A stretch of 35,732 nt of DNA from a virus: positions 1 to 35,732 of IMG/VR virus record IMGVR_UViG_3300009103_000090, one strand, 5' to 3'. Positions 4,932 through 8,911 of this stretch are shown in pieces (within the stretch, counting starts at the first letter, position 1; the number at the start of each line of letters is the position of its first letter). The notes beneath the pieces are model-generated. The model searched no databases. It saw nothing but the letters and a program-made list of their open reading frames with translations, and was not told the DNA's origin. A program made the position numbers and the translations under genes.

Positions 4932-5181
4932 TACAATTCCTTATAAGAAGGTTAGAGTTGAGTGGTGTGATATCTTAAGTGATAGTGGTTGGACTGATGA
5001 AAAAGGTTTTAACAAAATGAAATTGGCATTTCCTGTAAATGAAGGATGGGTGTTTTCTAAAACAGACGACGCAATTAAACTATTTGCTTCTTATGATAAA
5101 GAAGATGATGGTTCGTTTACTTTTGGGGATCGGACGATGATTCCTTTGGCTTGTGTGAAGAAGATTGTGAAACTTTCTTAA
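4861..5181 (+). CDS. Conserved hypothetical protein with basic N-terminus
   Basis: The first 25 residues are polybasic (PKRKPKKRRPRVRKR). The remaining 80 form a compact domain with several aromatic and acidic residues (VEWCDILSDSGWTDEKGF, LFASYDKEDDGSFTFGDRT) that looks conserved, possibly a small beta-barrel. The combination suggests binding to nucleic acid, but no family is recognised. Its first 71 nt are shared with the lysine-rich frame at 4800, and its last 65 nt are antisense to the 3' end of the small terminase gene. The true start could lie within the basic part, which cannot be settled here. Confidence 0.65.
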   Translation: MPKRKPKKRRPRVRKRIVNAIQPNTIPYKKVRVEWCDILSDSGWTDEKGFNKMKLAFPVNEGWVFSKTDDAIKLFASYDKEDDGSFTFGDRTMIPLACVKKIVKLS

Positions 5182-5701
5182 GAGTATTTAATCCTTCAGT
5201 ATCTTTCGGTTTAGGCATTGCTTTAACTTCTTTTTTAATTTCTTCTATTGGTTTAGCATTAAGTATAGGTGCGTAATCACTAATAATTTGTTTCATTTTA
5301 GCTTCTAATTCTAGCTCACTCATATCCTCAAGCTTACCAGTTTTTATTATTTTTTGTTCAATATATAATCCAGCGGCCTTTCCTCTATTTACTTCTGCGT
5401 TAACAGCAGATGAAAAACTACCACGTTTAATAGCTAACTCTCTGATCTTAGCTAGTTCAGCTATATGTCTTTCAAAATCTATTGCATATTTCTTTTGATT
5501 CTCTTCTCTCAATTCCCCAATATACTTAACTACCAGTGGTGATAACTTAGGGTTTTGTAGTTCACTTGCTTCAACACTAGCTCTGTCTTTGCTGTAGCCG
5601 GCAGCAATCGCAGCCTCTCTGGCGGTAGTCTTGCCTTCATTGTAGACAAGATACTCAGAGAATCTCTTTTGCATTTCAGTTAATCTTTTTGGTACTCCCA
5701 T
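5117..5701 (-). CDS. terS: Terminase small subunit
   Basis: The protein resembles phage small terminases of the Terminase_2 type. The N-terminal part has the DNA-binding helix-turn-helix region (LTEMQKRFSEYLVYNEGKTT, then EAAIAAGYS), a helical oligomerisation middle, and a low-complexity Ser/Lys/Pro tail. It recognises phage DNA and works with the large subunit during packaging. I place the start at the ATG at 5701 (194 residues), because the upstream TTG at 5737 falls on the promoter's -35 box. Then the ATG sits 7 nt behind a good -10 box, so the mRNA looks leaderless. The gene is on the opposite strand from, and about 5.6 kb away from, the large terminase. Its last 65 nt are antisense to the gene at 4861. 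Confidence 0.75.
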   Translation of the reverse strand: MGVPKRLTEMQKRFSEYLVYNEGKTTAREAAIAAGYSKDRASVEASELQNPKLSPLVVKYIGELREENQKKYAIDFERHIAELAKIRELAIKRGSFSSAVNAEVNRGKAAGLYIEQKIIKTGKLEDMSELELEAKMKQIISDYAPILNAKPIEEIKKEVKAMPKPKDTEGLNTLKKVSQSSSHKPKESSSDPQK

Positions 5702-5703
5702 AT

Positions 5704-5738
5704 ATTGACTTATAGAGTAATCTAAGGTAAAAGTCAAT
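5704..5738. promoter_or_regulatory. Symmetric divergent promoter, both transcripts apparently leaderless
   Basis: A perfect inverted repeat ATTGACTT (5704-5711) and AAGTCAAT (5731-5738) carries the -35 box of each direction. Minus strand: TTGACT (5737-5732), 17 nt, TATAAG (5714-5709), 7 nt, ATG at 5701. Plus strand: TTGACT (5705-5710), 17 nt, TAAAAG (5728-5733), 6 nt, ATG at 5740. Each -35 lies across the other strand's start region, so only one polymerase could sit here at a time. A repressor could also use the dyad. The plus-strand -10 is the weaker of the two. Confidence 0.65.
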
Positions 5739-5739
5739 T

Positions 5740-6081
5740 ATGTCACTAATACTTGATGAATTAAGAAGAGAAATACAGAAATTAAAAATGCAGTTATCCG
5801 AGCAGGTCGAGGAGAATATTAGACTTAAAGGATTTAAAGAAATGGTTATGTGTGAACCCAGTAAGTTTGAAGACAAACGTACCTATAAAAATTTAAAAGA
5901 ACATGGAACAGATATTTCATTTGAAAATGAGTCCAGAATTAAAGATGATAGAGGTGATGCAGATTTAACTAAACAGATAGACTCGTTAGAACGAGAGAAT
6001 ACAGATTTAAAAAGAGATAATAAGATTCTTGCTGATGACAATGCAACACTTACTAACAGATTAAGACAAGCGGGCATGTAA
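5740..6081 (+). CDS. Coiled-coil protein, 113 residues
   Basis: The protein consists of two predicted coiled-coil blocks, residues 5-30 (ELRREIQKLKMQLSEQVEEN) and about 75-110 (QIDSLERENTDLKRDNKILA, then DDNATLTNRL), joined by a charged linker. The second block has clear leucine heptads. It is the plus-strand partner of the divergent promoter, starts with no proper Shine-Dalgarno (only AAGG 12 nt upstream, which would lie within the promoter spacer), and ends in a TAATG overlap with the next gene. The function is unknown; a scaffold-like or regulatory oligomer is possible. Confidence 0.7.
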   Translation: MSLILDELRREIQKLKMQLSEQVEENIRLKGFKEMVMCEPSKFEDKRTYKNLKEHGTDISFENESRIKDDRGDADLTKQIDSLERENTDLKRDNKILADDNATLTNRLRQAGM

Positions 6082-8526: not shown

Positions 8527-8848
8527 TTTAATACTTTATTCCTTTTTCTTTCATTGTCCATTTAAATGTGGCCCGCCCGATGCTCAGGGCAGACTAGTAC
8601 AATTATTTCAACCACAAGGGACCGGCTCATAGGCAGGGTTTCCGGTATGCATCCCTACTGGCCCAGCACCGCCCGATGCTCGCGACCTATAATATAGTTC
8701 ACCTTAGTAAACGCCAAAAAGTCCCAAGAGCTCTGGTACTGGTACAACTCAATATTTTGGCTTTCGCTACTTCTATTAGCTACCAGTAACCTGCTCTATC
8801 TAATAAAATAAACTATTGTTTTTTTATTTCGATTAATCATATTTAATA
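8527..8848. other. GC-rich intergenic region with direct repeats, divergent control region
   Basis: About 320 nt separate the minus-strand operon from the plus-strand cassette. CCGCCCGATGCTC is present twice (8573-8585 and 8669-8681), 96 bp apart. On the minus strand a frame of at least 44 codons ends at a TAG (8657-8655) and continues for 30 more codons to a TAA (8564-8562). The second part contains an ATG at 8630 opening 22 codons. Both repeats are read as Glu-His-Arg-Ala in this frame. Whether it is coding, a leader or a structured RNA is not clear. The part from 8700 to 8848 is AT-rich and contains GGTACTGGTAC and a T-run. Confidence 0.45.
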
Positions 8849-8876
8849 CTTGACTATCCTATTGTCAAGGTATAAA
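8849..8876 (+). promoter_or_regulatory. Promoter with dyad for accessory cassette
   Basis: CTTGAC (8849-8854) and GTCAAG (8864-8869) form an inverted repeat with a 9-nt centre. TTGACT (8850-8855) could be a -35 box and TATAAA (8871-8876) a -10 box, with a short 15-nt spacer. A regulator bound to the dyad would cover the -35 box and spacer. The expected start is near 8883, a few bases before the first ATG of the 8912 gene's frame. Confidence 0.45.
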
Positions 8877-8911
8877 AGAAAATAATTATGTTAAATAATA
8901 GAAAGGACAAT

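Follow-up and report, generated by a model that had tools for sequence, protein, structure and literature searches.

The window, meaning the whole stretch of DNA that was analysed (35,732 nucleotides), is a virus record of 35.7 kb and comes from a SAR11-type ocean phage. In it the small terminase gene (terS) and a gene for a predicted coiled-coil protein diverge from start codons 39 bp apart, and between the two start codons lies an inverted repeat that reads as two opposed candidate promoters (Table 1). On the plus strand, a -35 box is followed by a 17-nt spacer, a -10 box, 6 nt, and the ATG at 5740. On the minus strand the order is the same, with a 17-nt spacer again and 7 nt between the -10 box and the ATG at 5701. 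As read from the sequence of this 33-bp element, each -10 box overlaps the -35 box of the opposite promoter. The bases, arms, boxes and spacers had been described in an earlier, sequence-only reading, and all of them were correct on direct reading. A promoter scan listed neither of these candidate promoters, because both -10 boxes are without T at position 6.

Table 1 Features of the window, with predicted promoter elements given as candidates
Feature	Position	Strand	Basis or remark
Small terminase gene (terS), predicted leaderless or near-leaderless	5117..5701	-	PF03592, E 1.3e-08; phrog_51
Inverted-repeat arms, ATTGACTT and AAGTCAAT	5704-5711; 5731-5738		Read directly from the bases
Mirrored promoter core TTGAC-N23-GTCAA, 33 bp, candidate	5705..5737	none	Matching element in 80/80 relatives examined (best 80 of 272)
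Candidate plus promoter, -35 box TTGACT	5705..5710	+	Sequence and comparison of distinct elements
Candidate plus promoter, -10 box TAAAAG	5728..5733	+	Positions 1-2 (T, A) invariant in 31/31 distinct elements
Candidate minus promoter, -35 box TTGACT	5737-5732	-	Sequence and comparison of distinct elements
Candidate minus promoter, -10 box TATAAG	5714-5709	-	Positions 1-2 (T, A) invariant in 31/31 distinct elements
Predicted coiled-coil gene, 113 aa, predicted leaderless or near-leaderless	5740..6081	+	Coiled coil by eye
Second mirrored pair, inside-out, candidate	8840..8878	none	-35 boxes inside, -10 boxes outside; both spacers 17 nt
Inside-out 19-bp dyad TTGAC-N9-GTCAA with the -35 boxes	8850-8868		
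Inside-out -10 box TAAAAG	8873-8878	+	
Inside-out -10 box TAAATA	8845-8840	-	

Two other assignments around the start codons were dropped. One was a Shine-Dalgarno reading of TAAGG, which lies 12 nt upstream of the plus ATG; many same-type relatives do not retain its AAGG. The in-frame TTG at 5737 was considered as the start of terS; the relatives align from the ATG, and several relatives with leaders have a ribosome-binding word ahead of this ATG, which also disfavours the TTG. When the divergent 113-aa gene is compared with its counterpart in L003, substitutions number 15, 12 and 42 at the first, second and third codon positions. With this third-position excess, the gene is judged to be protein-coding. 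The one profile that matches its product is a RecBCD-inhibitor profile, weakly and over 20 residues (E 6.5e-4), and the match was not trusted. Elsewhere in the window, the protein encoded at 1243-1692 resembles peptide deformylase by eye.

Single promoter-like sites are common in this sequence. Sites with a spacer of 17 and at least 9/12 matches number 45 in the window, against an average of 38.5 over 40 shuffles, and one isolated σ70-like site is at chance level and means little. The mirrored TTGAC/TA geometry, on the other hand, occurs once in the window and in none of 300 dinucleotide shuffles; unlike single sites, the mirrored pair exceeds chance. A loosely spaced TTGAC...GTCAA dyad alone is not rare (1 found versus 0.52 expected).

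Conservation and spacing of the mirrored element

Small-terminase relatives were collected from viral contigs (272), and the best 80 were examined. The dyad TTGAC-N23/24-GTCAA lies upstream of terS in 80/80 of those examined, the best 80 of 272. Loss of the dyad with the gene starts kept, which the sequence-only reading had named as evidence against itself, was looked for in this set, and the dyad was retained throughout. Among the terS relatives examined, the mirrored geometry that had been called unusual is the rule. The window and the 80 relatives together have 43 dyads that are 33 bp long and 38 that are 34 bp long, with 31 distinct sequences, counts that are not independent, as the terS relatives share ancestry. 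A chance 35-bp match in L075 (at 1779) was excluded. The mirrored element is absent from HTVC023P and from the regions read of 023Pt_psg01 and DSL-LC04.

In all 31 distinct elements, 33- and 34-bp forms alike, TTGACN-N17-TA is found in both directions, so that -35 and -10 boxes of σ70 type stand 17 bp apart both ways. The distance within a half-site varies (TTGAC-N3-TA or TTGAC-N4-TA), and the arm-to-arm length varies as well. On the divergent side, 70/81 loci have an ATG no more than 3 nt from the dyad, and the commonest gap between -10 box and ATG is 6 nt (27/43 of the 33-bp and 28/38 of the 34-bp type). On the terS side, the ATG lies within 4 nt of the dyad in 50/81, a leader of 40-164 nt is present in 29, and L057 and L058 (2/81) are unscored, their terS starts having been missed by the start-motif search. 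The gap on this side is 6 nt in 27/38 loci of the 34-bp type; in the 33-bp type, gaps of 6, 7 and 8 nt occur in 6, 9 and 2 of 43, and nearly all remaining loci have leaders. Such spacings and gaps would be expected from a promoter pair whose spacer and start distance are fixed, not from an operator with two half-sites.

Such an operator would be bound on its TTGAC arms by a repressor or activator, from phage or host, acting as a dimer or tetramer, with the promoters elsewhere or secondary. We consider it unlikely, even though a long inverted repeat between divergent genes is what it would look like. The symmetry ends at TTGAC: the sixth -35 base is unequal between the arms in 31/56 distinct 34-bp elements, and symmetric covariation of the arms, tested at this position as a sign of an operator, was not found. 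Half-site spacing varies while the cross spacing stays fixed, the middle varies freely at the helicase junction described below, profile searches found no regulator family, and no regulator gene is constant at the junction across the relatives. What an operator could explain is an extra conserved TTAC in the middle of the element at terS (positions 18-21 on the terS strand; 5720-5717, minus, in the window). It sits just upstream of the terS -10 box, each of its bases is kept in 29-30 of the 31 distinct elements, and σ70 contacts do not account for its conservation. Some bacterial sites of the same pattern, near-perfect palindromes, also adjoin proteins that by eye look like TetR or XRE types.

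The 33-bp type departs from the σ70 pattern at -10 position 6, where T is missing and G stands in the window and in all 21 distinct 33-bp elements. As described in PMC10268837, this base (-7) is normally among the best conserved. Given the G, promoters of the 33-bp type may be weak or activator-dependent.

The geometry was also recovered in a protein-independent scan of viral contigs for CATATTGAC-N-GTCAA. With N23/24, an ATG is present on the other side in 78 among the 128 matches listed, and in 74 among these 128 listed it is accompanied by TA at spacer 17 both ways. With N21/22 the other-side ATG is found in 7 among 120 matches listed, and with N25/26 in 6 among 120 listed; TA at spacer 17 both ways is found in 0 among either set. 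A second pattern, for which no ATG was required, gave 119 occurrences at the 118 loci parsed out of 120 viral stretches listed, and among these an ATG lies within 4 nt on both sides in 71/119 while 68/119 adjoin terS. Among the matches listed from bacterial genomes, 2/119 have an ATG within 4 nt on both sides.

The geometry at other junctions

The form with -35 boxes outside recurs in relatives between a helicase gene and a gene whose product starts with MKE or MKD (19 distinct dyads at 20 loci). This helicase resembles gp87 of Pelagibacter phage HTVC027P, annotated as a superfamily II helicase. TTGACA-N17-TA is found both ways in 18/19 distinct dyads, and the 12-nt middle varies freely. The start codon of the MKE/MKD gene usually lies 2 nt beyond the dyad, and the leader of the helicase gene is mostly 11-24 nt. 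Two further kinds of gene pair also carry the outside form, one in L107, L193 and L648 and the other in L186 and L521. In the former three (at 4154 in L193), the 34-bp geometry lies between an MKDINK-type gene and a different partner, of METK type in L193 and L648, once in a bacterial genome contig.

These junctions bear on the idea that the dyad is a packaging (pac-like) site or a recognition site of TerS, and is promoter-like by coincidence. Although other phages are known to have pac sites close to terS, and the dyad adjoins terS in most loci, this idea is hardly probable at all. The same geometry is found at the helicase and other junctions away from terS, a gene or a leader of 40-164 nt can separate the dyad from terS, and the 17-nt TTGACN/TA spacing in both directions is not predicted by it.

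The window also has a mirrored pair of inside-out form (Table 1). Upstream of the same gene, a TTGAC-N7..10-GTCAA dyad is present in 49/64 loci, 15/64 being without it. TA is found at spacer 17 in 34/35 distinct 19-bp forms in one direction and in 35/35 in the other; the figures are 1/2 each way for the 18-bp forms, and 5/8 and 7/8 for the 17-bp forms. The 17-bp forms often keep the spacer of 17 because the flanking bases have shifted along with the dyad. To the left of the pair, about 300 nt of the window (8527-8840) are without a convincing gene, and in relatives short hairpins, ACAACCAGAAGTTGT among them, occur in this region. The transcript running leftward may itself be a non-coding RNA or may contain one.

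It is conceivable, and put forward here tentatively, that the clade uses an exchangeable 'interlocked' cassette at several junctions, in outside and inside-out forms. Such a cassette would hold two σ70 promoters in 33-39 bp and serve leaderless pairs, and its one-at-a-time firing would couple both outputs.

Predicted leaderless starts and promoter overlap

The mRNA of lambda cI is a known leaderless mRNA. At near starts of the mirrored element, where the ATG is mostly 5-8 nt after the -10 box, a Shine-Dalgarno word of at least 5 nt is found at 0/50 terS starts and 0/70 divergent starts, the conserved dyad occupying the place where the word would stand. Among terS starts that have a leader, 11/29 show such a word. 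In HTVC027P, words of 4 nt or longer are present at 53/87 genes, but not at gp30 and gp31, which lie at its dyad. The absence of the word at near starts fits leaderless initiation, which it supports rather than proves. Leaderless or near-leaderless mRNAs are predicted as very likely in both directions.

In loci with a leader, a conserved hairpin leader GGTCTTGTTTG...CAAACAAGGCC, with CTCCACCAC in the loop, is seen between the dyad and terS (L043, L047, L053, L061, L078 and others). It begins directly after the dyad, TTTTT often comes next, and it looks like an attenuator or a small RNA. Rfam gave no match in six loci, namely L025, whose leader is short, and five others whose leaders differ in kind.

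The dyad itself is predicted to fold as RNA (z from -2.3 to -4.7 across four sequences), and it could then be an RNA hairpin within a longer leader, with the promoters further upstream. Any inverted repeat would fold likewise, however, and, because the genes diverge, the dyad would lie in a leader only for transcripts that begin within the opposite gene. Such a leader would have no ribosome-binding word, and the ATG positions follow the -10 box, not the end of the dyad. An RNA hairpin is thus very improbable.

The 33-bp element is probably a set of back-to-back, overlapping σ70-type promoters, producing mostly leaderless mRNAs under exclusive occupancy by polymerase. Each outer TTGAC would be the -35 box of one promoter and, in the other, would fall in the interval from the -10 box to the start site, and the 33-bp core with a few more bases would serve both genes. 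The host housekeeping σ factor would direct both promoters. Transcription would begin some 7 nt downstream of each -10 box, on or next to the A of the ATG, leaving leaders of 0-2 nt, and two polymerases could not occupy the element simultaneously. Mirrored overlapping promoters with starts at or beside both ATGs were the central claim of the sequence-only reading, and conservation, the fixed 17-nt spacers and the gaps between -10 boxes and ATGs support it. We infer promoter activity, the σ factor, the start sites and leaderless translation from sequence comparison; any regulatory use of the element is speculative.

That reading had further proposed a switch between a packaging gene and a possible regulator, and this part is not supported. 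The divergent gene changes, its protein varying strongly between relatives and another gene replacing it in HTVC027P and some contigs; profile searches found no match of the protein to a DNA-binding family; and the dyad of HTVC027P is flanked by a different gene pair. Physical exclusion of one polymerase by another would follow from the promoter overlap. In the account of PMC12825309, basal activity in all five E. coli bidirectional promoters tested was insufficient for competition, which emerged once they were activated. The importance of polymerase exclusion would therefore depend on promoter strength.

A cultured relative and known promoter systems

The closest cultured relative found is HTVC027P, with 70% identity in the large and 63% in the small terminase. 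It retains the geometry with arms TTGAT/ATCAA, and its dyad is flanked by gp30 and gp31, unlike the pair in the window. No such dyad was found at its helicase junction. Because no RNA polymerase is among the annotated HTVC027P products, the host polymerase is the likely user of the element. In PMC12753301, gp30 is named ArfA, and the per-gene data place it in its own cluster, with high expression at 3 hpi and a second time at 12-15 hpi; RNA-seq reads of the infection are given there as PRJNA1253180. The word 'promoter' is absent from the main text of PMC12753301, and promoters are unmentioned in the main text of PMC9599517.

The bidirectional promoters that Warman, Grainger and colleagues describe in E. 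coli, Salmonella and other prokaryotes (PMC12825309, PMC10268837) share a -10 element and have starts 7-25 bp apart, 18 being the commonest distance. The phage pair resembles them in that a short symmetric DNA is predicted to take polymerase in two opposed, mutually exclusive orientations. It differs from the promoters described there in that each -10 box overlaps or abuts the opposite -35 box and both RNAs would be mRNAs, both possibly leaderless. With predicted starts about 37-39 bp apart, the pair falls outside the definition of Warman, in which starts are 7-25 bp apart and -10 elements overlap reciprocally. By its sequence, it is classed as a variant of overlapping divergent promoters that the published bidirectional definition does not include.

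The CR/M promoters of the EcoRV restriction-modification system, as presented in PMC5333194, likewise have overlapping divergent cores; one polymerase excludes the other there, and such exclusion is predicted here. In EcoRV a controller protein is present and the C transcript carries a leader, whereas the phage pair has no known controller and is mirror-exact in geometry. The AhdI C transcript in the same source has its start site at the start codon and no Shine-Dalgarno word, like the sequence prediction here. Unlike such single leaderless mRNAs, two predicted leaderless genes would share one promoter core in the phage. No description of this mirrored element in pelagiphages was found in the literature searched.

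Published bidirectional promoters mostly share one -10 element, and many ocean phages have kept a different solution. Because spacing changes were compensated in evolution, its design is readable from comparison alone. The element suggests how streamlined phages, probably using the host polymerase, fit two promoters into 33 bp. HTVC027P on HTCC1062, with RNA-seq already existing, offers a cultured system for leaderless initiation and polymerase competition.
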